Of a DNA stretch of 64,000 nucleotides, positions 9,770 to 64,000 are shown in pieces. The stretch lies in the NCBI GenBank assembly GCA_024278835.1, contig JAJRSK010000029.1, positions 1 through 64,000 of the forward strand. Direction: 5' to 3'. Numbering within the stretch: the first letter of the stretch is position 1; each line of letters starts with the position of its first letter. A model generated the notes under the pieces. It had not been told where the DNA came from and did no database searches. It worked only from the letters and a program-made list of their open reading frames with translations. The position numbers were made by a program, and so were the translations under genes. The stretch comes from Campylobacterales bacterium. Its GTDB lineage: Bacteria > Campylobacterota > Campylobacteria > Campylobacterales > QNZT01.

Positions 9770-9803
9770 ATAAATATTATACTAAAGCTATCATGATAAT
9801 GTG

Positions 9804-11039
9804 CTACTTTTCGTGTAAAGCATTCCTAGAAATATCTTTTAGTGGTTTCAAGATATACTTGAAAATCGTCTTTTTCCCTGTTAGTATATTGATATTTGAC
9901 ACCATACCCGGCATAATTGGTTTATCATCAGCAAACTTTTGTTTCAGCGCTTTCACTTTTACTTGATAATAAGCTTGCCCATTTTTCTCAGAAAAGCTAT
10001 CAGAAGAGATAGCAATCAACGTCCCTTTTAAAAGTCCAAATTTTGCATAGTTATACGCGGTGATTTCGATAGAGACATCTTGCCCTATCATCACTTGCCC
10101 TCTATCATTGGTTTTGATTTTGGCTTCTATGACAAGATTGTCATCTAGTGGTGTGATTTCTGCGATTCTATCTCCTGACTTGATGATACCACCGATGGTA
10201 TGAAAGTAAAGTTTTTTGACCAATCCATTGACCGGTGAAACCACTACTTTTCGATCTTCTCTATCACTTTGGGCATACTTCTCTTCTGAGAGTTGTTTGA
10301 TTTTTGTCTCCACTTCTGAGAGCTTTTTGAGCCATTTTGATTTGGTTTCTGATTTGAAAGATTTTATTTTATTGAGTGATTCTGAAATCTTTTCTATCAT
10401 GATAGGGATACTACTCTTGATATCTGTTATCTGCGTCACTAGTGATTGTTTTTTGGAGAGTTCTGCTAAATACTGACTCTTTGATGCTGCCCCTTTTTTA
10501 ACTAATTTTTCAACAATTGCCAAGTTTTCGCTGGCTGTTTTTAACTCACTTCTCAAGTTTGCCAAACGAAAGGATTTTTGTTTTTTCTCTAACTTACTCT
10601 GCTTGAGCCTATCTTTTAATGTCGATAACTCATCGTCAAAGTTTTGCATCTCTTGTTTGAAAATATTTTTTTCACTTTCATTTAAAGAATCATTCATATC
10701 TTTTTTAAACGCGATTTGCGCTTTTAATCTCTGACTCTGTGCTTCGTAGGCTAAAAGAGAGATCGCTTTTTTATTCGAATCTGCTTGTGATGTTGCATTT
10801 TTCAACTTATAAATGGGATCCCCTATGTTAACCTTTTGTCCTTCTTTAACAAAAATATCTTCAACAATGCCACCTTCAAGATTTTGTAAAACTTTGGTTT
10901 GTGAAGAGGGGATGACTTTACCCTGTCCACGCACTACTTCATCCACTTCAGTAAAAACTGTCCATGCGATAAAAAGTGTTGAAAAGAGTATGATTGGCAC
11001 CGTCACTAAACGGTGATTCCAGCTATCTTCTTCTATCAT
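9804..11039 (-). CDS. Type I secretion membrane fusion protein (HlyD family)
   Basis: 411 residues. A short cytoplasmic N-terminus, one TM (VTVPIILFSTLFIAWTVF, about 12-29), then EVVRGQGKVIPSSQTKVLQN and LEGGIVEDIFVKEGQKVNIG, the lipoyl half-motif of HlyD/LapC proteins. A long coiled coil spans about 110-255, and the second lipoyl half is at VVSPVNGLVKKLYFHTIGG. It bridges the inner-membrane ABC transporter to the outer-membrane channel, presumably for export of the giant RTX protein. The start overlaps the upstream ABC gene stop (ATGA, 11036-11039), and a TATCATGATA copy (11034-11043) covers the start codon. Last gene of the adhesin operon. Confidence 0.92.
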   Translation of the reverse strand: MIEEDSWNHRLVTVPIILFSTLFIAWTVFTEVDEVVRGQGKVIPSSQTKVLQNLEGGIVEDIFVKEGQKVNIGDPIYKLKNATSQADSNKKAISLLAYEAQSQRLKAQIAFKKDMNDSLNESEKNIFKQEMQNFDDELSTLKDRLKQSKLEKKQKSFRLANLRSELKTASENLAIVEKLVKKGAASKSQYLAELSKKQSLVTQITDIKSSIPIMIEKISESLNKIKSFKSETKSKWLKKLSEVETKIKQLSEEKYAQSDREDRKVVVSPVNGLVKKLYFHTIGGIIKSGDRIAEITPLDDNLVIEAKIKTNDRGQVMIGQDVSIEITAYNYAKFGLLKGTLIAISSDSFSEKNGQAYYQVKVKALKQKFADDKPIMPGMVSNINILTGKKTIFKYILKPLKDISRNALHEK

Positions 11040-13135
11040 GATACACTCCCTTGAAGCATCGCCAAGACTTTCTCTTTTGGTCCATCTGCCACAACTTTTC
11101 CATCATTGATGAGTATCACCCTATCGACCAACTCCAAAGCAGCAAAACGGTGTGTAATCACCAGCACTGTTTTTTCTCCCAAGGTATCATTTAAATGTGT
11201 CACTAACTGTTTTTCTAGCCCCACGTCAAGTCCTGTCGTTGGTTCATCAAGTACAAGGATTGGTGCTTCACTCATCATAGCCCTAGCAAGTGCGACTAAA
11301 TGTCTTTGCCCAACAGAGAGATTAGACCCTCTTTCTCCTACTTGAAAATCATTCGCTGCCCCTGCTTTTCGTACAAGGTTTGAAAGTCCTGTTTTGGCCA
11401 GTAAATTATTCATCTCCTCTTTGGAGATAGTGCGTGAGAGTTCTAAGTTCTCTTTGAGTGTTCCTGAAAAGATATAAGGCTCTTGTGGCATCAGCGCAAT
11501 GTTGTCACGAAGCTCTATTGGGTGCAAACTTGATATATCCATATCATCGATAAAGATACGCCCTGCACTTGCTGTTTCAATGCCTGTTAATAGTTTCTGT
11601 ATCGTTGACTTCCCTGCGCCCGTTTGCCCGATGATACCCACGCGTTCCCCAGCTTTTATGGAAAATGAACAATCCACGACAGAAGGGTACTGTGCATTGG
11701 GATAAGTAAAGGAGACATTTTCAAAGGCGATATCTCCTTTGGCTTTTCCCATCCCTAACTCGATGTATTTTTGGTTTTCACTTGGTAAGTGCCAATATTT
11801 ATTGAGTGATTCAAGTGATTCTCCTACTTGTTTATACTTTATTAAGATATTGGATAACGAGATGATAGGCACCATCGCTAGTGCTGCCAAAATCGTCACA
11901 GCGATAAGCCCACCCACAGAGAGTGTGCCGTCATGGATAGCAAACACACCCACTATCACGGTACCAAGTGATACACCTTGCAATAAGCTATAAGAGACAA
12001 ATGAACTCATCCCATTTAAAAGTTGAATTTTACCTTGTATATGATTATAAAATGTCACTACTTGACGCCACTTTTGCACCCTCTTTGGAAGGGCATTGGC
12101 AAGTTTTATCGCCTCTTGTCCTTGGAGTTGCTCTACCAAAAATGCCTGCTTAGACTGTGCCCCTTCAAAGTTTTGTTTGTGAAGCTTGGAGATTGGAAAC
12201 TGCATCGCATAGTTTAAGCCTAGAGATAAAATCGCCGCAACAACAGGTATGATAGCCATCACAGGAGATATGATATAGATGACTAACACCGCCGTAAAGA
12301 AAAACGGAATATCTAAGGCATTGATAATCTTAGAAGAGAAAAAGTCTTTCACCACGGAGAGTTCACGAAAAAGGTTGGTTTTGGTACCTACCAAGTACTG
12401 ATCGTGCTGACTCTGGATACTGAGCACTTTTTTAAATAACTCTTCTTCAAAGTGGTTAGAGAGTTTTTGGGTCACTTTCTCCATAATCTTTACACGAGAA
12501 CTCTTTAGTATCACATCAAAAAGCAAGATAACCCCCACACCAAATGCCAAAACAAAAAGCGTCTCTGTGGCAAAATTTGGAATCACCCTATTGTAAACAT
12601 TCATCGTAAAAAGAGGAAGTGCCAATCCAAAGATATTGATAAAAAGAGTTAAAATACCTACTTCGATATATGCTCTCCACTCTTTTTTAAGCGGGGTGTA
12701 AAACCATGACTTATCCTTGTCATCTCCTACTTTTAGCACATCACTCTCTTTTTGAGGTTTTGCGATAAAAATAAAGCTATCATGATGGGCTAGTTCTGAT
12801 AGTGCTATCACCTCTTTTTGTATATCTTTAGCTCTTTTTATCGTTGCTGTTTTCGCATCAAGGCTTAAAAGAACGACACAATCCCCTTCTTTTGAAAGAG
12901 CGATACAAGGTAGCATATGCTTCTCTATAGCTGCTAAGCTCATCTTCTTGTGCACACTCACTAATCCCAGCTCTTTTGCTATCGCTTTGATAGCTGACAC
13001 ATCAAAATCTGCTAGTGAAGAGGGAGATAATTTCTCGATCGTAGCACTAGATACATTGCCAAAATGAAATGCTAGTATCGTCTCAAAGGCACTTAAAAGC
13101 CTATTTTTAACCAAACCTCCTAACGCTACTGTCAT
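11036..13135 (-). CDS. Type I secretion ABC transporter (LapB/RtxB type)
   Basis: 699 residues in three parts: an N-terminal C39-like domain (about 1-125), a TM domain (about 155-420) and a nucleotide-binding domain (about 465-699). The C39-like domain has no cysteine protease motif, so it is a non-cleaving substrate-docking type as in LapB/HlyB. Walker A is GQTGAGKST, the signature reads LSVGQRH, Walker B ILVLDEPTTG, and the H-loop VITHR. LSVGQ in place of LSGGQ is common in this family. It powers export of the RTX adhesin across the inner membrane. It begins directly after the stop of the TPR gene (13136), so translation is probably coupled. Confidence 0.93.
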   Translation of the reverse strand: MTVALGGLVKNRLLSAFETILAFHFGNVSSATIEKLSPSSLADFDVSAIKAIAKELGLVSVHKKMSLAAIEKHMLPCIALSKEGDCVVLLSLDAKTATIKRAKDIQKEVIALSELAHHDSFIFIAKPQKESDVLKVGDDKDKSWFYTPLKKEWRAYIEVGILTLFINIFGLALPLFTMNVYNRVIPNFATETLFVLAFGVGVILLFDVILKSSRVKIMEKVTQKLSNHFEEELFKKVLSIQSQHDQYLVGTKTNLFRELSVVKDFFSSKIINALDIPFFFTAVLVIYIISPVMAIIPVVAAILSLGLNYAMQFPISKLHKQNFEGAQSKQAFLVEQLQGQEAIKLANALPKRVQKWRQVVTFYNHIQGKIQLLNGMSSFVSYSLLQGVSLGTVIVGVFAIHDGTLSVGGLIAVTILAALAMVPIISLSNILIKYKQVGESLESLNKYWHLPSENQKYIELGMGKAKGDIAFENVSFTYPNAQYPSVVDCSFSIKAGERVGIIGQTGAGKSTIQKLLTGIETASAGRIFIDDMDISSLHPIELRDNIALMPQEPYIFSGTLKENLELSRTISKEEMNNLLAKTGLSNLVRKAGAANDFQVGERGSNLSVGQRHLVALARAMMSEAPILVLDEPTTGLDVGLEKQLVTHLNDTLGEKTVLVITHRFAALELVDRVILINDGKVVADGPKEKVLAMLQGSVS

Positions 13136-14668
13136 CTAATACTTTCTCTCTTCTACCATCTTATAGACCTTATCAAAGGCACTCTGCCAATCTCCCTGTT
13201 TCTCTTGTCGGATAAGTTTTAGATGCTTATACCAAGCAGAGGTATCACCCTCTCTACCCCAACGCCAATCGGCATTTTTTTGAAGTACTACCCACGCTTC
13301 TTTGCCCATAGCCCCAGCCAAGTGTGCCACAGAAGTATCCGAAGTAATCACAAAATCCAACTTTTCTATCACCAAAGCAGTCTGCTTAAAATCAAAAAGT
13401 TGTGACTCTAAATCTACCAATTTCTCTTCATAGCCAAGTGTTTTGATTTGTGCACTGTCCCCTGCTACCTGCAAGGAGTAGAGTTGTATGCTCTCATCCT
13501 CCATCAAAGGCTCAAAATAGGAGAGTGAAAAGACTTTATCTTCATAGCTCTCTCCCGTATTACTTGCACCCCAGACGATGCCGATATTGAGTTTTTTTAT
13601 ATCCACATGCAAGTCAATCTCTGTATCATCTACCCCGATATAAGGAAGTTTTGGTGCAGAAATCTCTTTTGTACCCAATATATGAGGCAGACTCATCACT
13701 GCTGCTTGATAATCAAATGCCCCCACACTCTCACCACGAACATAGACTTCATCAATATAGGGAATCTCACTAAAAAGTGTTTTAAGAGTCGCACGAACCT
13801 CTATCATGATAGTCAGTGTTGGATGTGCTAATTTGACCTCTTTGATAAAGCGTGCAAACTGTAAGATATCACCATACCCCTGTTCTGTATAGAGAAATAA
13901 TTTCTTATCATGATACTCTTGATTGCCATTAAAGCGTGGTTTCTTTAAAATCTCTTCTAACTCTTTTAATCTCCCCAACATTTCAGGCTTTTTAAATCGC
14001 CACTCATAAGCATCAAAACCTCTCTCATACTCTTCTAACATGAGATATGTCGTCGCCAAATCAAAATGCGCATTGACAAAGCTTTTATCTATCATGATAG
14101 CCTTCTCTAACGCACTCTTTGCCTCTTCAAAAAGTCCTAAATTTTTGTAAGTGATGCCGATATTTGCATAGTTTGAAGCAGATTTATCATCTAGCATCAG
14201 TGCCATCTCATGCTGAATCCTTGCTTCATCGTGGCGTTTCATCTTGTTGTAGATATTTACTAGATTGGCGTAAGCACCACTATTTTCATCATCTAGTTCT
14301 ATCGCTTTTAAGAGTGCTTTTTCACCCCCTTCATAACGCTTTGCCTTATTACAAGCAGCCCCTAGATTGACATAAGTAGAACCCCATAAAGGGTCGATAT
14401 CTCGTGATAGTTTAAACATCTCCACAGCTTGTTCATAGCGTCCTTGTCTATACAAAATGACACCGATGTTATTATAAGCCTTCACAAACTTCGCATCTCT
14501 TTTGATAGCCTCTTTGTAAAAGTGTATCGCCTTGTCAAACTCCCCTAACTTCTCTAAGAAGACAGCCAATTCATTGTATCTGTTTGGGTTTTGGGGGTCA
14601 TTTTGGATAGCAACTTGCAAATCGTCAACTCTGGATTGTACACTGACACGCGCTTCTAAATATGACAT
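13136..14668 (-). CDS. TPR-repeat glycosyltransferase-like protein
   Basis: 510 residues. About five to six TPR units fill residues ~15-230 (for example YNELAVFLEKLGEFDKAIHF and AYNNIGVILYRQGRYEQAVE). After a linker, residues ~250-510 look like a GT-B fold domain: LFLYTEQGYGDILQFARFI, then IGIVWGASNTG, then FVITSDTSVAHLAGAMGKEA and DWRWG. This is the GT9/heptosyltransferase-like or OGT-like arrangement found in proteins that glycosylate surface proteins. Its place between the FkbM gene and the secretion ABC gene suggests modification of the adhesin before export; that is inference. Three copies of TATCATGATA lie inside. Confidence 0.8.
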   Translation of the reverse strand: MSYLEARVSVQSRVDDLQVAIQNDPQNPNRYNELAVFLEKLGEFDKAIHFYKEAIKRDAKFVKAYNNIGVILYRQGRYEQAVEMFKLSRDIDPLWGSTYVNLGAACNKAKRYEGGEKALLKAIELDDENSGAYANLVNIYNKMKRHDEARIQHEMALMLDDKSASNYANIGITYKNLGLFEEAKSALEKAIMIDKSFVNAHFDLATTYLMLEEYERGFDAYEWRFKKPEMLGRLKELEEILKKPRFNGNQEYHDKKLFLYTEQGYGDILQFARFIKEVKLAHPTLTIMIEVRATLKTLFSEIPYIDEVYVRGESVGAFDYQAAVMSLPHILGTKEISAPKLPYIGVDDTEIDLHVDIKKLNIGIVWGASNTGESYEDKVFSLSYFEPLMEDESIQLYSLQVAGDSAQIKTLGYEEKLVDLESQLFDFKQTALVIEKLDFVITSDTSVAHLAGAMGKEAWVVLQKNADWRWGREGDTSAWYKHLKLIRQEKQGDWQSAFDKVYKMVEERKY

Positions 14669-14712: not shown

Positions 14713-15495
14713 TTAAATAGCTTTAAAACCTTCAACTTTGATAGGGCTATCATGATGGATACAGAGGATATTTTTAGAGACGATATTGCCAAATATATTG
14801 TCAGGATTTTTGGCAAAATTGTCAGGATTAAAAAGGCGTGGATTGTGTGCGTAAATCTTATAACCTAAATTTTTGATAGTCTCTATCAACTCTTCAGACT
14901 TTTCTACGCGGTCATTTTCCACATACAAAATAGGCTTGAACTTCTCTATCATGATAGCTGCCCCCTCTATCACACCCTGCTCCATTCCCTCAACATCAAT
15001 CTTGATAAAATCCAACCTATCGAGTTCTAAAAAATCATCAAGTTTTACTTTAGGTACTTTTCGTCCATGGCTAAACTTGTCGAGCTCAATACCTCCAAAA
15101 TTATTCTCTTTGGCATAGTCAAAATCAGGTATCATAATAGAGCTCTCTTCGTTGGAAACAGCTACTTGAAAGGCTTCAACATTGGTGATAGAGTTTAGCG
15201 CCATGTTGGCACAAAGAGTTTGAAAGACGATGCGTTGTGGCTCAAAGGCATAGACTCTTCCCTCACTTCCAACAAGAGCAGAGAGTGCCATCGTATGTGT
15301 ACCGATGTTTGCCCCTACCTCTATCATGATAGCACCCTCTTTGCAAATCTGCTCAAAAAGTTTCACTTCAAGTTCTGAAAACTCTCCACATATCTCGATA
15401 GATTTTCCGATGTACCTGTCGTTTTTATTGTAAAGGGTATAACCATGTTTTGCTTTTGCAAGTTCATTAAAACCTGTTGTTTGTAGTAGTGCCAC
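14713..15495 (-). CDS. FkbM-family SAM-dependent methyltransferase
   Basis: About 260 residues. SAM motif AIMIEVGANIGTHTMALSAL, then GRVYAFEPQ, and the FkbM block LDFIKIDVEGMEQGVIEGA. FkbM enzymes O-methylate sugars or polyketides. I place the start at GTG 15495 because AAGG lies 8 bases upstream; a TTG at 15501 gives the longer frame but its spacing is too short. SD and start sit in the loop and 3' arm of a hairpin (15494-15523) inside the 65-bp direct repeat. The first six codons are therefore duplicated at 16272-16289. Likely acts with the TPR glycosyltransferase on a glycan, possibly of the adhesin. Confidence 0.85.
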   Translation of the reverse strand: MALLQTTGFNELAKAKHGYTLYNKNDRYIGKSIEICGEFSELEVKLFEQICKEGAIMIEVGANIGTHTMALSALVGSEGRVYAFEPQRIVFQTLCANMALNSITNVEAFQVAVSNEESSIMIPDFDYAKENNFGGIELDKFSHGRKVPKVKLDDFLELDRLDFIKIDVEGMEQGVIEGAAIMIEKFKPILYVENDRVEKSEELIETIKNLGYKIYAHNPRLFNPDNFAKNPDNIFGNIVSKNILCIHHDSPIKVEGFKAI

Positions 15496-15542: not shown

Positions 15543-15557
15543 AAAAGTGAAAGATAT

Positions 15558-15917: not shown

Positions 15918-16146
15918 TTTCTTCCTCCTCTACAATCTTGATAACTTGTTTGACATAGATGACTTTTACAGGTTTTCTGTAGGGGATAGTCAAAGCTATG
16001 CTACCTTTTTTTGTAAACACATAGTGACTACCACCTCGATTTACCGCTTTATAGCCGATACCTTCAAGAACTTTTTTTAAATCTTCAAATCTTACATTTG
16101 TGGGGTTGTTCTTGATAAGCTTTATTAGTTTCTCTTTTCTACTCAA
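15907..16146 (-). CDS. hicA: HicA-family mRNA interferase toxin
   Basis: About 79 residues from TTG 16146 (SRKEKLIKLIKNNPTNVRFE), with the conserved GYKAVNRGGSHYVFTKK containing the catalytic His, and IPYRKPVKVIYVKQVI. HicA is a dsRBD-like ribonuclease. A longer frame from ATG 16182 exists, but a -10 box TATAAT (complement of 16172-16177) lies just inside it. SD AAGG (complement of 16156-16159) sits 8 bases before the TTG, so the shorter start is preferred. Frame intact. The pair sits between the adhesin gene and the rest of its operon. Confidence 0.87.
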   Translation of the reverse strand: MSRKEKLIKLIKNNPTNVRFEDLKKVLEGIGYKAVNRGGSHYVFTKKGSIALTIPYRKPVKVIYVKQVIKIVEEEENGC

Positions 16147-19300: not shown

Positions 19301-22300
19301 TATTGTTACTATCATCTATCTTTAAGCCTGTCAACTTACTATATGTTGCTGTCAAAGTTTTTGTATCATCCACTGAGATAGTAGCACTTACTGGGAAAGT
19401 ACCTGTAAATGTACTATCTTCACTAACAATCACTTGTGTAGTCGTTGTCACAACATGAGAAAGGTTTTCTGCTGAGTTGCCATCTATCATGATATCAACT
19501 GTACCATCACCATTAACAGTACTGATACTAGAAGCCTGATTATCTGTCATGATAACTTTAGAACCACTCCCAATAGTCAATGTTTCTATACTTGTAAAAG
19601 TCGTTGATTGAAGATCAATTGTTCCACTATTGTCAGAGATAACTACTGTATCTGTACCATCTCCACCATTTAGTGAAGCTACCACATGGTCAATTGTTAT
19701 CGTATCATTACCACTACCTGCAACAACACTATCAGCTCCTGCGGAAGTTAAATTGATGATATCATTTCCACCTGTTGCTGTAATCGTATCTGAACCATCT
19801 CCATCATTGATAGTGATACTACTTCCCCCGGTAACACTAAGGGAACTAAGATCTACTGTTGCCCCACCATTTTTTGCGTTGATTACTATATCACCAGTCC
19901 CAGAAAATGTCACACCTGATAAATCAGCATTGTTGACATTGTTGATATTTACTGTTGCACTATTGGCTATCTCTACTTTTTTACCAGACAAATCTGCACC
20001 ATCAATGTCAAATGTTCCACTATCTTGTGTGATTTTGTCAACTCCTCCTAAATCTCCTGCAAAAGCAAAAGCACCAGAAACAGCCATGATTAATATCACT
20101 GCAGACGAAGAGACATTTTCATAGTTATTTTGGCTAGAAACACCAACAAAGTTCACCGTACCCCCACCTGTTAAACTAACACTTTGACCATGCAACTGCG
20201 CATTATCCATACTTAAAGTATTGGCACTTTTTATCTCATCTATATTTTGTAAAGTTATAGCACCTAAATCTAAATCAGCATAAACTTCAAGTCTATTTGT
20301 CCCACCATTTCCATCGATAGTCCCCATATCGGCATCTATCATGATAGTATTGTTACCATCTCCTCCAGTAATATCCATGCTCGTAGTAACTCCTCTAGCA
20401 TCAAGTGATGAACTTCCTGCAAGCGTAACATTTTCAACATTGGTTGTTTTAGCACCAAGAACCAATGTCTCACTTGTGTTGGTGAAGTTTATCGTATCTG
20501 TGCCACCTCCTGCATCTAAGCTTGTTACCTCAGCATAAGCAGCAGCAGAGCTGATATTTATCGTATCATCACTATTTGAGAAGATAAACTTTTCTATATT
20601 TTTTAGTGTATCTGTTCCCACACTATCATCACCACTATTTAATGTTGCCGTAACCGCTGCACCACTATAATCAGCCGTATCTTCTCCTCCAGCTCCATCA
20701 AGCACCAATCCACTCACACCACCTGTAAAGGTATCTTGGTTGGCTGAAGCGACAATAGTTTCAAATCCAGAAAATGTATCACTACCATCTCCACTTGCAC
20801 TACCAGATGAAGCATTAATAGTAATACTATTTGTTGCCCCTGAAAAAGTGAGGATATCCCCTGTACCATCTCCACCTTGTAAATTATTATTGACGTTGCT
20901 TCCCTCTATCGTATCATTGGCACTTGAACCGATAATATTTTCTATATCTATAAGCTTATCTGTTCCTACACCACTAGCATTCCCAGAGCGAAGATTTACA
21001 TTGACTGCACTATTTCCACTATAATCCACCATATCAGTATCAGCACCACCATCAAGTGTATCATCTCCTGCTCCACCGATGAGCATATCATCGCCACCTT
21101 TACCTTCAAAATGGTTATTTTCTCCATCACCTGTAAGTTTGTCGGCATTGCTAGTTCCGATGATGTTTTCGATATTTTTGATAGTATCTGCACCATTATA
21201 GTTAAGTGTTACAGCAGTCGCACCATTAAGGGTGATATCCAAAGCACTACCAGCACTACTTAAATCAATAGTATCACTTCCAATACCACCATCCATCGCA
21301 TCATTACCCGCTTCAAGCGTAAATATATCTGCTCCATCTCCACCTTGAAGGTCATCATCTCCACCAAGTCCATAAAGCGTGTCATTGCCACTATCACCTT
21401 TGATGAGATTGGCATTATTATCACCTGTTAAAGTATCTGCATAAGTAGATCCTGTGAGATTTTCGATACTACTTAGCGTGTCAGACCCAGCACCAACCGT
21501 ATTTTGTGCACCAGAAACCAATGCTACCCTCACTCCAGCACCAGCACCGAGATATTGTGCCGTATCACTTCCACTACCACCTGTGATGATATCATCTCCA
21601 GCACCACCCTCTAAAGTGTTGTTACCACTTGTAACAATCAATTCATCATTGCCAGCTAAACCATAAAGCGCATCATCTCCCTTTCCACCTTCTAGCCTGT
21701 TGGCAACATCATCACCCTTTAACATATCTGAAACATCTGAACCGATAACATTTTCTATACTATTGAGTACATCTGTATTTTCAATACCACTTATAGTTCT
21801 TACTCCTGAATTTTGCACCAAATCAACAAAGACACTCTCTGCCCCACTATAATCTACCGTATCGATACCACCATCACCCGAAAGCACATCATCTCCAGCA
21901 CCACTTTTAAGGGTATCATCTCCCTCGCCTCCACTTATGGAGTTTACCTTATCGTTTCCTGTTAAGATATCATTATGCTGTGAACCTATGATATGTTCTA
22001 TATTGCTAATCGTCTCTGATGTAACACCAAAACCATCATTTGCAGAGGTACCAGCTTTCAAATCAACCTGCACCCCTTCATTTGTTGCACCATAAATGAT
22101 TGTATCATCATTACCATCACCACCATCATAACTATCTATGCCTTCTCCCGCATAGAGTATATCATCACCACCGTCACCATAAAGCATATCATCACCTGCT
22201 CCACCAACAAGAACATCTTCACTATCATTTCCATGAAGTGTATCCTTACCATCTCCTCCATAGAGTGTATCATCATCAGCACCACCATTGATGATATCAT

Positions 22301-25300
22301 CTCCCTCTTCCCCATAGAGTGTGTCTTGGTTATTTTGCCCTTCAATTCTATCATTACCTTTTCTACCATAAATGATATCATTTCCATCATTCCCTAAAAG
22401 GCTATTGTTTTTATCATCTCCCGTGATATCATCCGCATAGTCACCACCATAGACATGCTCTATATTGACTATGGTATCGACATTTCCATTGCCATCATTA
22501 CTTGCTTCACCATCTGCCAAACTGATTGTTACACCACCAGTTTCACCATAGTAGTATCTTACCCAGTCATTCCCATCACTGCCATCAGCTTCACTTCCCC
22601 CATCGATATAATCATCTCCTGCATATCCCCAGATATCATCATTACCTGCACCACCATAGATAGTATCATTACCCGCAAAAGCATAGATATCATCATTACC
22701 TTTTCCTGCATTGATAATATTGTCTGCGTTTTGTTGATCATGTCTATAAATCACATCGTTTTGGTCAGAACCTATAATGTTTTGAAAATTACTGATACTA
22801 TTGGTATCCGATGAGCCACCCACAGTTACAACGGTATCTACCCTTGTTGTGGAAGTCATTGTACTTAAATCAAGGTTGTTATTACCACCTTCTCCATAGA
22901 GTTCATCTTGTCCTAAAGAGAGGACGACTATATCATCCCCCTCACCAGCTTTGATTATATTTCTCCCATCATCTCCTGTTAAGGTATCACTATTTTTAGA
23001 ACCGATAATATTTTCGATACTATTTAATGCATTTGTCTCCGCATTGCCATAACCATCATTATCAATACTTGTAGTACCAAGGTTGACAATAGCACCTATC
23101 GTTGAAGTCACATCATCAAATGCGATGGTATCTACCCCCGCACCTCCATCATAACTATCTATACCATCTCCACCATAAAGTGTATCAGCGCCATCACCAG
23201 CACTTAAAATATCATTACCAGCACCACCATAAAGTGTATCCTCTCCTGTACTTCCTACTAAACTATCAGCACCACCATTTCCATAGAGCGTATCAGCACC
23301 ACCATAACCAAAGAGTGTATTCGTACTATCATCACCTTTCAATATATCACCATAGTTTTCACTGCCACCAACATCCTCAATTTTTTTCACATTATCTTCT
23401 GTATTTCCATATCCATCGTTGACAACTTTAGTATTTAGTAAATCTACTTCAACACTACCCTCAGCATTGAAAAAATCAATTCTATCTTGATTATCACCAC
23501 CATCATAACTATCAACACCATCACCACCAGTTAGTACATCATTGCCAGCTAATCCTTTAAGCACATTGTTATTAGCATCACCTATGATGCTATCATTGGC
23601 ACTCCCACCTGTCGCATTTTCTATACTATTAAATAAGGCTCCATCTGTAGAGGTGATAGTAGCACTTAAATCCACAGTTACATCTGTCGTATAATCCTCA
23701 TAACTCACCGTATCACTACCACTTCCACCAATAAGAGAGTCATTTCCAGCAGTTACTTTAAAAGTATCATCCCCACCGTTACCTTCTAGTCTGTTGTATC
23801 CAACACTTCCTTTTATCATATCGTTACCTTGTGAACCACGCACATATTCAATTGAATCAAGGCTATCTGTACCACCATAACCATCAGAAGTAACCGTATT
23901 TAAACTTAAATCAACATTGATGCTTTTTGTGCTATCAACTTCATCAAAAGAGATAGTATCTGTTCCAGCACCACCAATGATGCTATCATTACCAGCTTGT
24001 CCTTTGAGGATATCATTGGCATCACCACCATCAAGACTATCATTACCAATACCACCATAGATAGTATCATTGGCACCACCGCCAAGCAAAGTATCTTGAA
24101 AATTAGTAGAATTATCATTAGTGGTATCATTAAAACCACTCATGACATCTGTTTTACTTGTCCCTTTAATCACCTCTATATGGTCTAGCAAAGTATCAGT
24201 TCCATCCACTGATGTCACCGTACCAAAGTTTACGCCACCATCGGAGAGAGTAACAGTAACACCATTTTCTCTCTCAGCATAAGAAAGTGTATCACTTTCA
24301 CTTCCACCTGTAACTGTATCATTACCAAGTCCCGTTCGAAGGATATCTGCACCAGCTCCACCTATCATGATATCATCACCACTATCACCATAAAGTGTAT
24401 CTGCCTCGTCGCCACCATCTATCATATCTGCACCAAGTCCACCATGAATCTCATCAAAACCAGCCTCGCCAAATAGTGAATCATCTCCATCATTACCTTG
24501 AATTAAATCATTTTGGGCACCACCATAAATAGTATTTGAAGAAGAATCACCACTTAAAGCATCCGCTTGGTTTGAACCTATCACTATCTCGATATTTTTG
24601 ATGATATCTTCATAGCCATCACCACCATTACTGGCTTTTTGAAGACTTAAATCTAAATTAACAGAACCCGAAGCTAAAGAATAATCGATTATATCTTGAC
24701 CTGCACCACCATCGATATTATCAGCACCATCTGAGCTAAAAATCGTATCATTACCGTCATTACCTTCAATGGTGTTCACAATAGTCGTAACATCATCACC
24801 TTTAAGGGTATCGGCTAAAATAGTTCCTCTAATGTTTTCTATACCACTAGTGGTATCAAACTTGCTGTTATCTCCAGCATTTTCTACTCTACTATTGGTC
24901 AAATCAGCATTGATAGCCGTAGTATTTTGATACGAATAATCCGCCCAGTCACTTCCACTATCACCATTTTCATCACCACCATAAAGCATATCACCATCAA
25001 GCCCACCTTGAAGATAATCATCTCCCGCTTCACCCATGAGTGTATCGGCATCAGCGCCACCACGGATGGTATCATTTCCAGCATCACCTTTAAGTGTATT
25101 GACACCGCCATCACCGATGATAGTATCATCATTACCAGAGCCCAATATATCTTGAATATTGGTAACAGTATCCAACCCTTCACCTGTGACTTTGTGTTGT
25201 GATAAATCAGCCTTTATCCCTGTACCAGAATTTCTATAATCAAGTGTATCTTGATTGGCTCCTCCATCGATACTATCATCACCAAGTCCACCACTTAGCG

Positions 25301-46416: not shown

Positions 46417-47272
46417 ATGAAACCAAACGTAATCACTATCATCTGCCTGTGTTCTCTTTCTCTCTCAGCTACCGAACATACTCAGGCACTTACATATTTA
46501 AATCAACTAAGAAATGGTACGGGGATGATATCCTTTGCCTTGGATGCAAACTTAAATACAGCAGCGCAAAACCATGCAAACTATATGCTATCAAATAGTG
46601 TTTTTGGACATTATGAAACATCTGGCAATACAGACTATACAGGTTATAAGCCTTCAGACAGAGGGGAAGCTGCAGGATATTTTAGTAGTGTTTATGGTGA
46701 AAACATTAGTGCTGGAAATGCAGATATGACTATTGCTATAGACAGTCTATTTACAGCGATTTATCATCGTCTTGGATTTTTAACTATGGATAAGTTGGAC
46801 TTGGGTGTAGGATTCTTTTATGACAATAGCTATCCTTATCATAGTGCCCATGTTTTCAATATGGCAACTGATACTGGTACCTCCCCCCGATGATGTCAGT
46901 GGACAAAATCCTCTTATCGTTAAATGGCCTTATCCAGGATATACCCAGATGCAACCAGCTTTTTTTAACAATGAATTTCCAGATCCTCTTCCTGAGTGCA
47001 ACCAAGGTGGTCCATCAGGCAATCCTATCAGTGTACAATTTAATCCAGCAGATACACCACCCAATATAACAGCACTCGCATTTACACTACAAGATAGTAG
47101 TAGCAATACAATCAATACTCAAATGCTAGATGCCAATAACAATGCTATATTGACATCTAGAGAGAATGGCATAGAAATAGCTTCTATCGATAATAGTCAA
47201 ACTACTTATCATGATAGTGGACTATTATCATCAACTACTTACACTTATACCGTAAAAGCAACGGACGAATAA
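46417..47272 (+). pseudogene. CAP-domain secreted protein, frameshifted at C6
   Basis: The first frame (46417-46893) has a signal peptide (MKPNVITIICLCSLSLSA) and a CAP/SCP domain: LTYLNQLRNGTGMISFALD, NHANYML, FGHYETSGN, YGENISAGN, LGVGFFYDN. It ends at TGA after a run of six C (46883-46888). Reading on in the next frame from there gives PPPDDVSGQNPLIVKWPYPG and an FN3-like end (SSTTYTYTVKATDE) to 47272, clearly the continuation. CAP proteins are extracellular. SD AAGGAG lies before ATG 46417. The C run could be a phase-variation tract, an assembly error, or a dead gene. Confidence 0.75.
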
Positions 47273-47283: not shown

Positions 47284-47313
47284 TATCATGATAGAAGTCT
47301 TTGACTTCTATCA
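47284..47313. repeat. Palindrome and hairpin upstream of the TolC-like gene
   Basis: TATCATGATA at 47284-47293 runs into an 11-bp stem TGATAGAAGTC (47289-47299) and GACTTCTATCA (47303-47313), loop TTT. No T-run follows, so it is not a standard terminator. It lies 12 bases after the CAP pseudogene. Confidence 0.6.
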
Positions 47314-47421
47314 ACCATCTCACACGCATACAGTTCTACAAATAATACAATAAAACTATAAATAATATTTTAAACTTGCCGATATAAAAATGAAAGAATT
47401 TAAATTTACTAGGGTTTTATC

Positions 47422-50250: not shown

Positions 50251-51473
50251 AAACCTCTTTAAAGATAAGCATAGCACTTTTTCTTTTCCTTATCATGATA
50301 GCCCTCTTTGCCTACAAGTATATCGCGCCTAGCCCCCAAAAGTCTCTCACTATCGCAGCAGGCAGAGAAGGTGGTATGTACTATCAGTATGCCTCGGGGT
50401 ATGCAAAAAGTCTTGAAAACCAAGGCTTTACAATCTCTATCATTAAAAGTGCTGGCTCTTTAGAAAATCTTGCACTTTTAGAAGAGAAAAAAGCAGATAT
50501 CGCTTTTGTACAAGGTGGTGTAGCTAGTAAAGAGAACAAAGAGACCTTGCGCAGTATCGCCTCTATCTATTTTGAACCTTTGTGGCTTTTTTACCGTGAC
50601 ATGATGAATGATGTGCACTATCTTCGTGATTTAAATCCACAGAGACTCTCTATAGGGGAAGATGGCAGTGGTACAAAAGATTTGGTCACAACACTTTTTA
50701 AGATCAATGCCCTTGATATCAACAGCTCTTTACAGCTCTCTACCAAAGATGCCTATCGTGCTTTTAAAGAGGAAAAGATAGATACTTTTTTTGCCGTAGG
50801 TGCTGCAGACTCTTCGCAAATCATCACGCTTTTAAGTGATACAACGCTTAAAGTCGCCTCATTCAATCGTATACAAGCGTATACAAAACAGTTTCCTTAT
50901 CTGAGTCTCTATCAACTCCCAGAGGGTTCTCTTAACCTCCAAAACAACATTCCAAAGAGTAACTTAACGCTGCTATCTACTACAGCCACGCTCGTTGTAA
51001 GAGAGGGCTTAGAAGATAATTTAGTACGTTTTATCACCATGCAAGTCAAAAATGCATCCAAGGATGAACGCTTTCCCACAACACAGTACGTTGATATCCC
51101 TATCCACCCTCAAGCGAAAAAATATCTTGAAAAAGGAGAGAGTTTTCTTGAAAAGATATTTCCTTTTTGGATAGCATCAAACATCGATAAACTGAAATAC
51201 TTACTCATCCCGATACTCACCTTGATGATTCCTCTTATTAAAGGTGTTTTTCCTCTCTATAAATGGCGTGTACGTTCCAAGATATACAGATGGTATGCTA
51301 TTTTAGAAAAATTAGAAAAAAGCAAAGATCCAAAAAAGATAGAACATTTAACTCTCTTACTAGATGAAGTCAATGCCCACACAGATGTGCCTCTCTCCTA
51401 CATGGGGGAACTTTATGATTTAAAAGTACATATAGACTTGGTGATTCAAAGGGCGCTCTTAAAGAGAGGTTAA
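50247..51473 (+). CDS. TAXI-family solute-binding protein with C-terminal TM
   Basis: 408 residues. An N-terminal membrane anchor ([20 protein letters not shown]), then the TAXI-type periplasmic domain: [56 protein letters not shown]. Near residue 320 a second TM ([20 protein letters not shown]) leads to a cytoplasmic helical tail. TAXI proteins feed TRAP transporters, but no TRAP permease lies nearby. The two-TM form is known in Campylobacterota and may be a sensor or scaffold. Cotranscribed with tgt. Its last 15 bases overlap the end of the converging glycosyltransferase. Confidence 0.8.
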
Positions 51474-52247
51474 GAGCCTCTTATAAAACATCTCTACCTC
51501 AGAGTTTTGATGTTTTTTCGCCCCACGGATAAGAATGGATGCCTTTTTTTCTATCTCCTCTTTTACCCTTTTTTTTTCAAGGTGTTTTAAGAGGGCTTGA
51601 ATACGAAAAGTATCCATAGAATGATATTTACAGGAGAGTTGATTATCGTGTCCCGCAAACTTTGTTGTTAAGATACTTTCCACTAGTCCAAGTTCATACT
51701 CACGTAAAACTCTTAGCCACAAATCATAATCTTCACAAACTTCTAAGCCCTCATCAAAATAGCCAATTTTTTCAAAGACCGTTTTGGCTATCATGATAGT
51801 CGAAGGGGCGATTTTACAAAAGTCTATATTTTCCTCAAAACACCAACCAGATGGCTTTTTATGGATTATTTTTTGCTTTATCTCTTTGTTGTTTCGTATC
51901 CATCTCTCCCCCGTATGGCTTATCATGATAGAAGGATTACTATCATGATAAGCCATCTGCTCTTCTAACTTTGTAGGATGCCAGATATCATCAGAATCAA
52001 GCAGACATATCCATTTGCCCTCAGCTTTCTTTATCCCAGAATTTCGTGCATGGGATACACCAGCATTATCTTGATGTATCACTTTTATCTTATCATGATA
52101 GCCCCTGAGTATATCAGCTGTAGCATCACTAGAACCATCATCTACCACGATGATTTCAAAAGGTGTAAGGGTTTGAGAGAGTACCGAGTCAATCGCAGTG
52201 GCGATAAAACCTTCACGATTATACACGGGAATGATGACAGAAATCAA
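51459..52247 (-). CDS. GT2 family glycosyltransferase
   Basis: 262 residues. GT-A fold marks: ISVIIPVYNREGFIATAIDS, VVDDGSSDATADIL, HARNSGIKKAEGKWICLLDS with DSDD as the metal-binding motif, and CEDYDLWLRV as the ED acceptor-site motif. Substrates are unknown; probably a surface polysaccharide. It overlaps the DedA stop by four bases and ends a four-gene minus-strand operon. Four copies of TATCATGATA lie inside, two of them forming a 16-bp inverted repeat (51915-51956). Confidence 0.88.
   Translation of the reverse strand: MISVIIPVYNREGFIATAIDSVLSQTLTPFEIIVVDDGSSDATADILRGYHDKIKVIHQDNAGVSHARNSGIKKAEGKWICLLDSDDIWHPTKLEEQMAYHDSNPSIMISHTGERWIRNNKEIKQKIIHKKPSGWCFEENIDFCKIAPSTIMIAKTVFEKIGYFDEGLEVCEDYDLWLRVLREYELGLVESILTTKFAGHDNQLSCKYHSMDTFRIQALLKHLEKKRVKEEIEKKASILIRGAKKHQNSEVEMFYKRLLTSL
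51915..51956. repeat. 16-bp perfect inverted repeat made of two TATCATGATA copies
   Basis: Arms ATGGCTTATCATGATA (51915-51930) and TATCATGATAAGCCAT (51941-51956) with a 10-base loop, inside the GT2 coding sequence. It codes MAYHDS...IMISH on the minus strand. Confidence 0.9.
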
Positions 52248-52807
52248 GGGCGTTTTTTAGTCACTTTAGAGAAATAAAACCACAGAGTACCTAACAAGGT
52301 AAATAAGATAATAGGCAATATCCATGGATTAGACTTCACATAAGCAAAGGCATTGACTATCTGCTCACCACCATAGTAACTCAAAAGTCCAAAAAAGAGT
52401 GCAAAGAGTATGGAAGCAAAGATATTTAAGATACCAAATCTCACAAATGAGTACTTCGTCAATCCTATCGCTATGGGCACAAGTGTCTTGACACCATAGA
52501 TATACTTTTGTATAAAGATTACCCAGTCACCATACTTTTTTATCAGCACATGTGAAAGTGCAAATTTTCTTCTATGATTCTTCATATAAGGAGCTGTAAA
52601 AGATTTGTTATATCGTGCCATATAAAAGAGAAACATATCCCCTATATAATTAGCAGTCGCGGCTATCATGATAGAAAGGGTGATATCCATCTTGCCCATG
52701 TAGGAGAGAGCCCCAGCAGCAACAAGCCCAAAAAAACCTCCACCAAAGGAGTAGAGGAAAAGCGCGATATACCCATACGTTGAAAGAGAGGATAAAAGAT
52801 CTTCCAT
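52244..52807 (-). CDS. DedA-family membrane protein
   Basis: 187 residues with several hydrophobic segments (YGYIALFLYSFGGGFFGLVA, FGILNIFASILFALFFGLLS, NPWILPIILFTLLGTLWFYF). The middle (ATANYIGDMFLFYMARY, KYGDWVIFIQKYIYGVKTLV) fits the DedA/SNARE-associated family, which includes undecaprenyl-phosphate and phospholipid flippases. It follows the SYLF gene with no gap. The TATCATGATA copy at 52664 codes IMI. Confidence 0.85.
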   Translation of the reverse strand: MEDLLSSLSTYGYIALFLYSFGGGFFGLVAAGALSYMGKMDITLSIMIAATANYIGDMFLFYMARYNKSFTAPYMKNHRRKFALSHVLIKKYGDWVIFIQKYIYGVKTLVPIAIGLTKYSFVRFGILNIFASILFALFFGLLSYYGGEQIVNAFAYVKSNPWILPIILFTLLGTLWFYFSKVTKKRP

Positions 52808-53476: not shown

Positions 53477-55248
53477 TTTTTTCCTTTGTTGACATACTCA
53501 GCAAACTTCCCATTTTGGGCTAAAAGTATCTCATATTGACCTTCTTCAATGATACGCCCTTTATCCAATACATAGATATAGTCTGCTTGGGTAATAGTCG
53601 AGAGTCGATGTGCGATAATTATAGTAGTTCTTTCTTTTAAGAAAGTTGATAACTCTGAAAATAGCGTCTCTTCCGTGTTCACATCCAGTGAGGAGGTGGA
53701 CTCATCTAAAATGACCACATTTGGATTGGCAATCAGCATCCTGGCGATAGAGAGACGTTGGCGTTGCCCACCAGAGAGTTTTACCCCATTTTTTCCGACA
53801 ATTGTATCTACCTTTTTATCCAATCCCGCGATAAAATTATCCAACTGCGCCACATGTATCGCCTGTTTTAGATGCGCTTCATCTACCTCTTTTCCAAAGG
53901 TAAGGTTATAGCGGATGGTGTTGTTAAAAAGCATGGGTGATTGTAAGACTAAAAAGACATTCTCACGTATCACATCAAGCCCGATTTCTTTATAGTTTAT
54001 CCCATCAAACAGTATCTCTCCCTCTTGCGGCTGATAAAAGCCCACTAAGAGTTGTGCTAAAGTTGTTTTACCACTTCCTGTCTCTCCTACGATGGCTATC
54101 TTTTGACCCTTTTTGGCTTTGATATTGATAGCATTGAGAGAGTATTTTCCCTCCTCATAAGAGAAGTTGAGATTTTTCAATTCTATACTGTTGCTACTAG
54201 TACCTTTAAAAGGATTTTTTTCATGAGGATAGACAGGCTCTTTTTTCATAGCAAATACTGCATTGATTCTCTCTAATGCTGCTTGTGCGTTATGATAAGC
54301 ATACTGAATAGAGATGATTTCTTGCAAAGGATTCATGATAACCCAGAGATATCCAAACATCGCCAGCATCATCCCAATAGTCAAATCCCGATACTCCACC
54401 GATAAGACACCGGCTGAGCGAAACACTTCAAAAGCCCCTAAAAATAGGAAAAAAGAGAACATCATCGCCACTTCATTTTTGAACTTAAAGTTGATAGCCG
54501 CGTCTTTCATCGCCTCTGCTTGAGATTCTAACTTTTGCACAAAAACATTCTCTTGATTGCTCGCTTTGACTTGCCAATAGAGATCTAAATTTTCGCCCAA
54601 GTCTTCTTGAAATTCTGCTATTTTTTTATTTTCTCTTTTTTTTAGTTTGCCGACATTTCGGGCTATCTTTTTCGTGATATAAGCGATAACTGGTGTCACC
54701 AAAAGTATAAAAAGCCCCAATTGCCAGTTGAGCCAAAGCAACATCGACGCGATACCGATAACTGTCATGATAGAGATGATAAAGCGACTCACAGAGACCC
54801 CTAAAAAGTTATCTATCGTCGCTACATCCACGACAAGCAGTGAGTTCATTTTGCCTGAGCCAAAGTTTTCATACTCAGAAAGTGACGTTTTTGCGATATG
54901 ATTTAATAAATCTTTTTGTATCTTAAAAGTCACATTTTTAGAAATCTTGGTGAAGTACCAATTTTGAAAGACATTCAATATAAAAAATAGCGCACGAAAA
55001 CATATAGAAGCAATAAGCGCGATAAAGACATAAAAATACGCCTCATGAGGAGGTGCAAAAAGCGTGTTTATAGACTCTATCATGATAGCAGGTTTCTCTA
55101 GCAATATCTCATCGATAAGATAGGGAATAAGCAAGGGAATAGGAAGCGAAACTAAGACCGCAAGGATGGCGATAATGTTAGCAAGAATCAACTCTCTTTT
55201 ATAAGTAAAGACTTCTTGGAAAATATTTTTAAATGTGTACTTTTGCAT
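53473..55248 (-). CDS. ABC exporter, fused permease-ATPase (MsbA-like)
   Basis: 591 residues: six-TM ABC1 domain (about 15-310) and an NBD (about 345-590). Walker A GETGSGKTT, Q-loop VFLVLQSPMLF, signature LSGGQRQRLSIAR, Walker B NVVILDESTSSLD, H-loop IIIAHRLSTI. A homodimeric exporter is expected; substrate unknown, possibly a lipid or glycolipid given the SYLF, DedA and GT2 partners. First gene of the operon. A TATCATGATA copy at 55078 lies in the early TM region. Confidence 0.9.
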   Translation of the reverse strand: MQKYTFKNIFQEVFTYKRELILANIIAILAVLVSLPIPLLIPYLIDEILLEKPAIMIESINTLFAPPHEAYFYVFIALIASICFRALFFILNVFQNWYFTKISKNVTFKIQKDLLNHIAKTSLSEYENFGSGKMNSLLVVDVATIDNFLGVSVSRFIISIMTVIGIASMLLWLNWQLGLFILLVTPVIAYITKKIARNVGKLKKRENKKIAEFQEDLGENLDLYWQVKASNQENVFVQKLESQAEAMKDAAINFKFKNEVAMMFSFFLFLGAFEVFRSAGVLSVEYRDLTIGMMLAMFGYLWVIMNPLQEIISIQYAYHNAQAALERINAVFAMKKEPVYPHEKNPFKGTSSNSIELKNLNFSYEEGKYSLNAINIKAKKGQKIAIVGETGSGKTTLAQLLVGFYQPQEGEILFDGINYKEIGLDVIRENVFLVLQSPMLFNNTIRYNLTFGKEVDEAHLKQAIHVAQLDNFIAGLDKKVDTIVGKNGVKLSGGQRQRLSIARMLIANPNVVILDESTSSLDVNTEETLFSELSTFLKERTTIIIAHRLSTITQADYIYVLDKGRIIEEGQYEILLAQNGKFAEYVNKGKK

Positions 55249-59562: not shown

Positions 59563-60261
59563 ATGCTAAGGCTATCTTTACTCCTCAGCCTCATCCTATT
59601 TTTTAGCGCTTGTAGCAGGTATCAACCGACTAAAGTACCTAAAAAAATTGTTTCTATGCTGAAAGAAAGAACATTGGAAGATATCGGTGCAAAGATGGGA
59701 GACCCTATCTATATACGTATCTTTAAAGAGGAAAAAAGTCTGGAACTATGGGTAAAAGTAGAGGAAAAATTTAAACACTACAAAACTTATCCTATCCAAA
59801 GAACATCTGGAAAACTAGGTCCAAAACAGAGAGATGGTGATAGACAAAATCCAGAAGGTATCTATGTCATCAATAAAAGCAATCTCAACCCCTTTAGCAA
59901 GTATCATCTTGCCATGAACATCGGCTATCCAAACCGCCTAGATAGAAACCAAAAACGCACAGGCGATGCTATCATGATACATGGTGGATGCAAATCTATC
60001 GGTTGTTTTGCCATGGGAGACCCAAATATAGAAGAGATATATACTCTCGCCTATAATGCTCTTGACAATGGACAAAAGTTCTTTTACCTAGCCATCTATC
60101 CTTTCAAGATGAAAGAAGAAAATCTTAAAAGATATGAGAATGTATCATGGTTCCCTTTTTGGCAAAACCTTAAGGAGGGATATGAACTTTTTAACAAAGA
60201 AAAAATACCTCCCAAAGTTACCGTCAAGGGTAAAAGATATATCTTTAAAACCTCGCTTTAA
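59563..60261 (+). CDS. YafK-like L,D-transpeptidase domain lipoprotein
   Basis: 232 residues. Lipoprotein signal LLLSLILFFSACS. The catalytic block IMIHGGCKSIGCFAMGD has the Cys of the YkuD fold; RDGDRQNPEGIYVINKSNLN is the substrate-side motif of the YafK family. Relatives include YafK/DpaA, which cleaves Lpp from peptidoglycan, and Csd6 of Helicobacter, which trims peptides to shape cells. Acts in the periplasm. Immediately downstream of DUF2130, converging with the phosphoesterase. Confidence 0.88.
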   Translation: MLRLSLLLSLILFFSACSRYQPTKVPKKIVSMLKERTLEDIGAKMGDPIYIRIFKEEKSLELWVKVEEKFKHYKTYPIQRTSGKLGPKQRDGDRQNPEGIYVINKSNLNPFSKYHLAMNIGYPNRLDRNQKRTGDAIMIHGGCKSIGCFAMGDPNIEEIYTLAYNALDNGQKFFYLAIYPFKMKEENLKRYENVSWFPFWQNLKEGYELFNKEKIPPKVTVKGKRYIFKTSL

Positions 60262-60263
60262 CG

Positions 60264-61118: not shown

Positions 61119-61129
61119 CCTTTATGAAT

Positions 61130-61852: not shown

Positions 61853-61878
61853 AGCCTACTCCTTTTCTATCATGATAG

Positions 61879-62526: not shown

Positions 62527-62623
62527 ACTTACTCTCTATTTGATTTTATACCTTAAAGTATAGCAAAAAAAGAGTAATATTGTCTTATATAAAAACCGAT
62601 ATGCTTAGCTAATAAGGATTTTA

Positions 62624-64000
62624 ATGTTTTCACTCTTACTCACTATCATGATAAGCATACTCATTTTATGGTTTTTCTATGACCGCTTTGTACAAAGAAG
62701 CCACTCTCTGCTCATCAACTACCCTATTATCGGAAGAATGCGTTACTTTTTTGAAGCAGTGCGCGAACCCTTCCGACAATACTTTGGTGACGAAGATGTG
62801 TTTGACTCACGCGACAAGATAGAGTGGGTTTACAAAGCGGCCCATGATAAATCTAACTTTATCTCTTTCTCCCCAGCCAACCCACAAAAAAATCCTAAAT
62901 TTATGCTCAAACATGCCTTTGCACCACTCAATGAGTCAGAAGTGGATAGCCATTTTGCTGTGACATTTGGGGAAAAAAGAGAGCACCCATTTCTCAGCCG
63001 TTCTGTGATCGCTAGAGGTGGTATGAGTGACGGTTCTATCTCTCCTGAAGGCACACAAGCTTTTGCTATCGGGGCATTTCGGGGGAAATTTCCTATCAAT
63101 ACTGGTGAAGGAGGACTCACCTCAAACTTCTTGGTTACGCATCGCTCTTACAACACGGAGTATATGGAAACTGTCAATCTCACAGATAAGCAAATCACCC
63201 TATTTAATATTCTACGAAAACTCTTTAACAGCTCTTTTGCCATTCGAATTTTAAAACGCGTGTGCCTTACAAGTGGACATAAAGATACCTATAGTTTTGA
63301 TAGAGAGAGGTACTGTTTTTATAGGGTGGATTGGTCAGCTGATTTGGAAAAGTTTCCAAAAGAAATTCCTGAGGATGTACCTGATATCATACTTCAGATG
63401 GGTTCGGGACTCTATGGCGTACGAGATGAAAATGGAGACTTTGACCCGATTCGTTATCAAAAAGTCCTCTCCTTTTGTAGTATGAGCGAGATAAAGTTAG
63501 CCCAAGGAGCTAAACAGACGGGAGGCAAACTTACCAAAAACAAAGTCACCGAAGCGATTGCATATTATCGTGGAGTAGAGCCACATAAAGATCTCTTTTC
63601 ACCCAACCGTTTTCCTCATGCTAACACCGTAGAAGAGTTGTTTGATTTTGTTGAAAAACTCCAATCTCTTTCACAAAAACCCGTTGGATTTAAGATCATC
63701 ATCTCAGACCGTGAAGGTTTTGAACCCATCGCTAAAGAGATAAGAAAACGGCGAGATTTAGGAAAAAATATCCCTGATTTTATCTCTATAGATGGTGGTG
63801 AAGGAGGTTCGGCGACTGCGCCTATAGAACTGATGGAGCGTATAGGACTAGGCATCAAAGACGCCCTCTTTTTAGCCAATGAAATACTCAAAGAACAAGG
63901 CGTGAGAGACGATATCAAGCTCAATGCTTCAGGCAAAGTCCTCACCCCTGACAATGTCGTTATCATGATAGCCCTAGGGGCAGACTTAGTTTCCATCGCT
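62624..64000 (+). CDS. FMN-binding glutamate-synthase-like protein (partial, 3' end outside)
   Basis: About 459 codons are visible; the frame is open at the window end. SD AAGGA (62613-62617) precedes ATG 62624. An N-terminal TM (LLTIMISILILWFFYDRFVQ) leads to the GltS-type central/FMN domain: NYPIIGRMRYFFEAVREPFR, ISPEGTQAFAIGAFRGKFPI, NTGEGGLTS, IILQMGSGLYGVR, VGFKIIISDREGFEPI, ISIDGGEGGSATAPIELME. This is the YerD-like single-domain form, distinct from GltB, with no glutaminase domain. The reaction is not established for this branch. TATCATGATA occurs at 62644 and 63961. Confidence 0.85.
   Translation, partial: MFSLLLTIMISILILWFFYDRFVQRSHSLLINYPIIGRMRYFFEAVREPFRQYFGDEDVFDSRDKIEWVYKAAHDKSNFISFSPANPQKNPKFMLKHAFAPLNESEVDSHFAVTFGEKREHPFLSRSVIARGGMSDGSISPEGTQAFAIGAFRGKFPINTGEGGLTSNFLVTHRSYNTEYMETVNLTDKQITLFNILRKLFNSSFAIRILKRVCLTSGHKDTYSFDRERYCFYRVDWSADLEKFPKEIPEDVPDIILQMGSGLYGVRDENGDFDPIRYQKVLSFCSMSEIKLAQGAKQTGGKLTKNKVTEAIAYYRGVEPHKDLFSPNRFPHANTVEELFDFVEKLQSLSQKPVGFKIIISDREGFEPIAKEIRKRRDLGKNIPDFISIDGGEGGSATAPIELMERIGLGIKDALFLANEILKEQGVRDDIKLNASGKVLTPDNVVIMIALGADLVSIA

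Follow-up and report, generated by a model that had tools for sequence, protein, structure and literature searches.

The window analyzed here, a stretch of 64,000 nucleotides from a Campylobacterales bacterium, corresponds to contig 41 of a 2.51-Mb genome assembly (G000, 99.99% complete) and carries many copies of a perfect 10-bp palindrome, TATCATGATA. Exact copies number 36 and span positions 9789-63970, compared with 0.13 predicted by dinucleotide-preserving shuffles, and an exact-match scan of positions 1-9788 returned none. A first-pass annotation of the window had reported the same 36 and zero, with a chance expectation of about 0.2; every copy was re-found by exact match and the shuffled figure is similar. 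The window also has 14 occurrences of a longer flanked form, CTATCATGATAG. The copies are listed below, with no strand assigned; all are exact matches, and copy 9 was placed by open reading frame (ORF) as well.

9789..9798, motif copy 1, TATCATGATA
10395..10404, motif copy 2
11034..11043, motif copy 3
13802..13811, motif copy 4
13906..13915, motif copy 5
14090..14099, motif copy 6
14947..14956, motif copy 7
15322..15331, motif copy 8
19485..19494, motif copy 9, within giant RTX gene
20337..20346, motif copy 10, within giant RTX gene
24363..24372, motif copy 11, within giant RTX gene
26075..26084, motif copy 12, within giant RTX gene
27350..27359, motif copy 13, within giant RTX gene
29378..29387, motif copy 14, within giant RTX gene
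29451..29460, motif copy 15, within giant RTX gene
31064..31073, motif copy 16, within giant RTX gene
32052..32061, motif copy 17, within giant RTX gene
32259..32268, motif copy 18, within giant RTX gene
34227..34236, motif copy 19, within giant RTX gene
35154..35163, motif copy 20, within giant RTX gene
36672..36681, motif copy 21, within giant RTX gene
44479..44488, motif copy 22
47207..47216, motif copy 23
47284..47293, motif copy 24
47418..47427, motif copy 25
50291..50300, motif copy 26
51789..51798, motif copy 27
51921..51930, motif copy 28, intragenic close pair with copy 29, 20 bp apart
51941..51950, motif copy 29, close-pair partner of copy 28
52091..52100, motif copy 30
52664..52673, motif copy 31
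55078..55087, motif copy 32
59970..59979, motif copy 33
61868..61877, motif copy 34
62644..62653, motif copy 35
63961..63970, motif copy 36

Across the whole genome TATCATGATA is found 1549 times, versus 7 times for the reversed word used as a control, and the motif density of the window resembles that of the genome as a whole (0.56/kb versus 0.62/kb). A 682-kb sample of the genome holds 454 copies where base composition, with bases drawn independently, predicts 2.1, so that the genome-wide count proposed as a check in the first-pass annotation came out far above expectation. The second genome available for the genus, that of Sulfurospirillum sp. MAG bin10080 (G001, 89% complete), contains 1009 copies (about 0.44/kb), and in both genomes the most over-represented 10-mers are TATCATGATA and its flanked forms. 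In a sample of 399 genomes of the order, in which these two alone represent the genus, the 397 others hold 0-166 copies each, and the remaining members of the same family 3-88; among the genomes searched, abundance of the motif is restricted to the genus. The core of the palindrome, TCATGA, is mildly enriched in relatives, and in a genome from another family of the order (G056; L071, L273-L292) ATCATGAT is the top over-represented 8-mer, with 166 exact versus 719 one-mismatch copies, a pattern that may represent the motif at an early stage, in decay or in a looser form. Judged by titles and abstracts, none of the papers found to contain the string TATCATGATA appears to deal with an iterated genomic motif, and no uptake-type or iterated-palindrome equivalent in Campylobacterota was found in the open-access literature searched, in line with the earlier statement that none was known.

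On each side, the base adjoining TATCATGATA is C in 60% and T in 25% of cases, while positions beyond these are nearly unconstrained in sequence. This flank preference is symmetric and the motif itself is a perfect palindrome; the functional form is YTATCATGATAR, 12 bp long and two-fold symmetric, with a strict TCATGA core. Deviations within TCATGA stay at about background level; those that are tolerated fall mostly at the ends, with C for T0 and G for A1. Genome-wide, 1549 perfect copies in G000 compare with 845 for all thirty one-mismatch words summed, and 1009 with 686 in G001. Such a preponderance of perfect copies over those with a single mismatch is named as a hallmark of the uptake signal sequences (USS) of Pasteurellaceae and the DNA uptake sequences (DUS) of Neisseriaceae, and is absent from ordinary regulator sites (PMC1626085). 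A transcription-factor operator is expected to be rare, degenerate and promoter-proximal, unlike 1549 exact sites that show no clear enrichment before start codons, and copy number together with strict consensus speaks against the operator of an ordinary regulator, one of the roles first suggested for the motif. Spacing between copies is random, the coefficient of variation being 1.02 versus 1.007 +/- 0.041 for random placement in G000 and 1.002 versus 0.959 +/- 0.044 in G001.

With ORFs defined by a simple longest-ORF rule, 359 of the 454 copies in the G000 sample lie inside ORFs. They are read in two frames only, as xIMI (214) or YHD (133), the third frame holding a stop, as had been noted for the window. 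After synonymous shuffling of codons within genes, 94.5 copies remained versus 470 observed in G000, and 67.8 versus 273 in G001, so that shuffling accounts for only a fifth to a quarter of the copies and codon usage alone, which the first-pass annotation had named as a possible refutation, does not explain them. The tripeptide IMI was found 300 times versus 49 expected (6-fold) and YHD 220 times versus 14.5 expected (15-fold), whereas no enrichment was seen for the permuted control tripeptides MII, IIM and DHY. The contrast between the two tripeptides and their permutations indicates that the pressure acts on DNA, and the tripeptide enrichment that amino acids were altered in making the DNA word; the motif has reshaped proteins. 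A codon or peptide explanation is refuted by the synonymous shuffles and the permuted-tripeptide controls.

Copies are denser in non-coding than in coding DNA (1.00 versus 0.58/kb and 1.15 versus 0.37/kb), a 1.7-3.1 fold excess that lies 0-40 bp after stop codons, where densities reach 3.8 and 2.9/kb in G000 and 3.0 and 2.2/kb in G001. Pairs of copies 15-30 bp apart are over-represented, and the non-coding close pairs are mostly near a stop codon (13/16 and 6/6). Several pairs have matching inner flanks that lengthen the stem, for example TATCATGATAAGAGGATAAACCTCTTATCATGATA, and the post-stop pairs probably form stem-loops acting as transcription terminators.

Conservation was assessed in 206 ortholog pairs between the two genomes (median identity 72%). 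In G000, 34 of 112 sites keep the whole 10-mer, and in G001 34 of 91 do, compared with 5.3 and 5.7% for ordinary in-frame 10-mers. Identity is 0.78 within the motif, 0.62-0.67 in the flanking 30 bp on each side and 0.72 overall. Where the partner site is not conserved, it is mostly ungapped and differs at several positions, gaps being large indels or alternative ends; since small gaps are missing, the copies arose by substitution in variable stretches and not by insertion. An inserted element or 12-bp insertion footprint was rejected, as no such gaps occur in the ortholog alignments inspected. The idea that the copies are left over from codon or oligonucleotide bias, or from a short inserted element, could draw on the ordinary codons read in two frames and on the mildly enriched core in relatives; it is refuted by shuffles that leave 59-95 copies of the 347-470 observed, by the enrichment of IMI and YHD without that of their permutations, and by alignments that show substitutions with no 10-12 bp insertions.

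Motif density in G000 climbs with GC3, from 0.23 to 0.92/kb, and the trend in G001 runs the same way. Genes rich in A+T, among which recent acquisitions would be found, are accordingly motif-poor, gene composition serving here as an approximate indicator of foreign origin. Scarcity in such genes would be odd for a structural need, a point that bears on the proposal that the motif is bound by an abundant dimeric protein, nucleoid-associated or chromosome-organizing, that requires a site per 1-2 kb. Such a protein would suit the perfect two-fold symmetry, the genome-wide sites at random spacing, the weak forms of the core elsewhere in the order, and the combination of a strict TCATGA core and looser YYR positions at the edges, which is the contact pattern expected of a symmetric dimer. 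Protein-rewriting selection at 1500 sites would, however, be hard to sustain without drive, regulator-type sites show a relaxed consensus (PMC1626085), and no candidate protein emerged, for which reasons we regard this proposal as improbable.

The host-dense, AT-rich-gene-poor distribution, with no copies in window positions 1-9788, would also be expected of a self/non-self mark read by a defense or recombination nuclease, as in Chi-like action or exemption from restriction, instead of by an uptake machinery; 16 viral contigs with close motif pairs in IMG/VR may point the same way. The function of Chi and of KOPS depends on their asymmetry, whereas a palindrome gives no polarity, and no nuclease system was found to follow the motif, which makes a nuclease mark a highly improbable explanation.

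In form and density the motif matches the highly iterated palindromes (HIPs) of cyanobacteria, HIP1 and alternative HIPs, which are likewise genome-wide, found inside and outside genes, lineage-specific and loosest at their outermost positions (Elhai, PMC4390886). The first-pass description of the motif as HIP1-like is thus correct for form. HIPs are GC-rich and 5-8 bp long, as opposed to 10-12 bp and 80% A+T here, and the motif differs from them further in that perfect copies exceed one-mismatch copies and in that no matching methyltransferase was found in the families searched. These searches used the profiles PF01555, PF02086, PF00145 and PF02384, plus an order-wide search with the one candidate that emerged, an orphan MethyltransfD12 enzyme common to G000 and G001 (78% identical), whose gene adjoins selO in both genomes and also xth in G000:

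L197:1495-2505 and L198:1369-2370, orphan D12-type DNA methyltransferase

The HIP-like form would be explained if an orphan methyltransferase read the motif, or TCATGA, and the copies were maintained through repair, replication control or uptake that depends on methylation. The shared D12 enzyme agrees with this, and in the same phylum Campylobacter marks its own DNA for transformation by means of an orphan methyltransferase, CtsM, with the target RAATTY (PMC8627207), a precedent that makes a methyl-marked uptake tag conceivable; the D12 enzyme is possibly related in role to CtsM. The CtsM site of Campylobacter jejuni is itself unlike the motif, being 6 bp long, present in some 28,000 copies in a Campylobacter coli genome (PMC8627207) and not an enriched 10-mer. 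Orthologs of the D12 enzyme (53-66% identity) occur throughout the order in nearly motif-free genomes, including G043, G045 and G053 with 1, 2 and 7 copies, and among the families searched no methyltransferase follows the distribution of the motif. In G001, with its 1009 copies, no C5 (PF00145) and no PF01555 N4/N6 methyltransferase was detected, an absence that is not absolute in a genome 89% complete. We know of no methyltransferase with a continuous palindromic target of 10-12 bp. A methylation-linked origin is therefore doubtful, and the methylase target proposed in the first-pass annotation has as its sole candidate an enzyme that is common where the motif is not.

The interpretation we favor, with about half of our confidence behind it, is that the motif is a genus-specific DNA self-recognition tag, most likely an uptake sequence that biased transformation has spread. 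The best-known uptake sequences come from Neisseriaceae and Pasteurellaceae, two bacterial families that are not related, and opinions differ on whether selection or molecular drive accounts for the spread of such sequences. A receptor, probably dimeric or acting on a symmetric site, would favor the entry or recombination of tagged DNA in natural transformation; alleles gaining a copy through point mutation would be taken up preferentially and then spread by molecular drive. Copies would build up in core-genome stretches that tolerate change, even at the cost of altering the protein, and lost copies would be restored through recombination with conspecific DNA, while two nearby copies after a stop codon would be co-opted as stem-loops, probably terminators. 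Within this scheme the existence of a receptor, its action in uptake and the termination of transcription by the pairs are inferred. A palindromic uptake sequence of independent origin in Campylobacterota, strong enough to have put IMI and YHD into hundreds of proteins, with a symmetric or dimeric receptor that is related to neither ComP nor ComN and with weaker or decaying ATCATGAT versions in another family of the order, has a chance that we would place somewhat short of even.

Like the DUS of Neisseriaceae, whose receptor is ComP, the motif is 10-12 bp long, present in hundreds to thousands of copies, strong in consensus and barred from one reading frame by a stop; it resembles them further in its conservation within permissive core-genome stretches, in its terminator-like stem-loop pairs and in being specific to a genus or clade (PMC2397512, PMC3630211). 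DUS are conserved within permissive, less conserved flanks and form inverted pairs after genes (PMC2397512, PMC3630211). With DUS and USS alike it shares a density of roughly one copy per kb (0.62 and about 0.44), the status of dominant over-represented oligomer, a preference for non-coding DNA in spite of many coding copies, and an origin by substitution. It differs from DUS, which are no palindromes and are dyad-arranged only in Simonsiella and Kingella, also in its unrelated sequence and its occurrence in another phylum. USS have an asymmetric 9-bp core, AT-rich flanks and somewhat more regular spacing, as opposed to flanks that are nearly free beyond +/-1 and random spacing here. The suggestion of an uptake or self-recognition signal, raised in the first-pass annotation, thus fits most of the measured features, the two that do not fit being the palindrome and a spacing no more regular than random, and it is this balance that leaves an uptake sequence favored with about even confidence.

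Several points weigh against it. To our knowledge, no DUS or USS described so far is a palindrome. Motif spacing is random, whereas that of USS and DUS is described as more regular than random. One-mismatch copies are reported to outnumber perfect ones among the DUS of Neisseriaceae (PMC3630211), which places the consensus ratio seen here nearer to USS than to DUS. The competence gene comEC, present in both members of the genus and most relatives, and pilins, for which counts resting on short hidden Markov model hits gave 9-16 pilin-type N-termini per genome, occur just as much in motif-poor relatives, so that the distribution of competence genes does not follow that of the motif. Finally, the post-stop stem-loops could be an exaptation of any abundant palindrome. 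As regards symmetry, dyad-arranged DUS have been described in Simonsiella and Kingella (PMC3630211), so a symmetric uptake sequence is not without parallel.

In the search for a receptor, the comEC-priA-uvrB region contains three tandem pilin N-termini in G000 and G001, compared with two near comEC in G002, G009 and G006, which represent the other genera searched. One of the three comEC-linked pilins of G000, next to priA, is basic, with a pI of 9.1 versus about 5 for the other two; its sequence matches are generic pilins and a single-sequence structure model was uninformative (mean pLDDT 38). A minor pilin of this region is offered as a lead, a candidate receptor. The priA gene (L234:14060-15895), beside the comEC-linked pilins (L234:16102-17565), carries five motif copies in 1.8 kb, and a sixth lies just outside, at 15987.

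If the motif is an uptake sequence, it would provide a third, independent and symmetric example, allowing drive and selection to be compared across origins, and it would point to a new DNA receptor in a phylum where selective transformation is already known. If instead a methyltransferase or chromosome protein reads the motif, it would be a non-cyanobacterial HIP, of help in telling HIP function apart from cyanobacterial biology. Under either reading, the visible effect on the proteome bears on how DNA-level signals constrain proteins.

A scan of a genome collection for close pairs found, among the matches listed, no iterated palindrome in other taxa, the matches being single-locus operators and one repeat element. 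Paired TTATCATGATAA, spaced at 27 or 30 bp, was found among the matches listed in Vibrio and Photobacterium (L084, L142) and in Kiloniella and Ruegeria (L085, L124), upstream of peptide-transport or peptidase genes and, in Vibrio and Photobacterium, adjoining a GntR-type regulator; it is probably a conserved operator with no relation to the iterated motif. Also among the matches listed, three loci from Bacteroidota (L098, L127, L133) have tandem CTTTGAATTATCATGATAATTCAAAG dyads with 31-bp spacing, located in L098 and L127 directly 5' of a gene for an ATPase whose Walker motif is of the AAA type. The repeat AAAGTGATATCATGATATCATGATAGCTATCAT, dispersed over many loci in the GC-rich genomes of Candidatus Lindowbacteria (L094, L129, L136, L139, L149), looks like a REP-type palindromic element.

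The motif-free positions 1-9788 of the window encode a bacterial Suv3-type RNA helicase, a Na/H exchanger and a CHAD protein. There, GATC reaches 1.23/kb, compared with 0.70/kb in the remaining window, for which reason this part may be acquired DNA. Over the G000 sample (L001-L040 and the window), GATC occurs 691 times versus 2361 expected from composition and GGCC 185 versus 881, while in G001 CTAG and GGCC are depleted and GATC is not, a contrast that probably reflects different restriction histories.

On the minus strand, positions 16338-42095 form a single ORF of 8585 amino acids, consisting mostly of RTX calcium-binding repeats, with 63 HemolysinCabind stretches in one half, 37 in the other, and 13 motif copies within the repeats. 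A type I secretion set adjoins it, comprising an ABC transporter with a C39-like domain (11036-13135), HlyD (9804-11039) and a TolC-type OEP (47422-49098).

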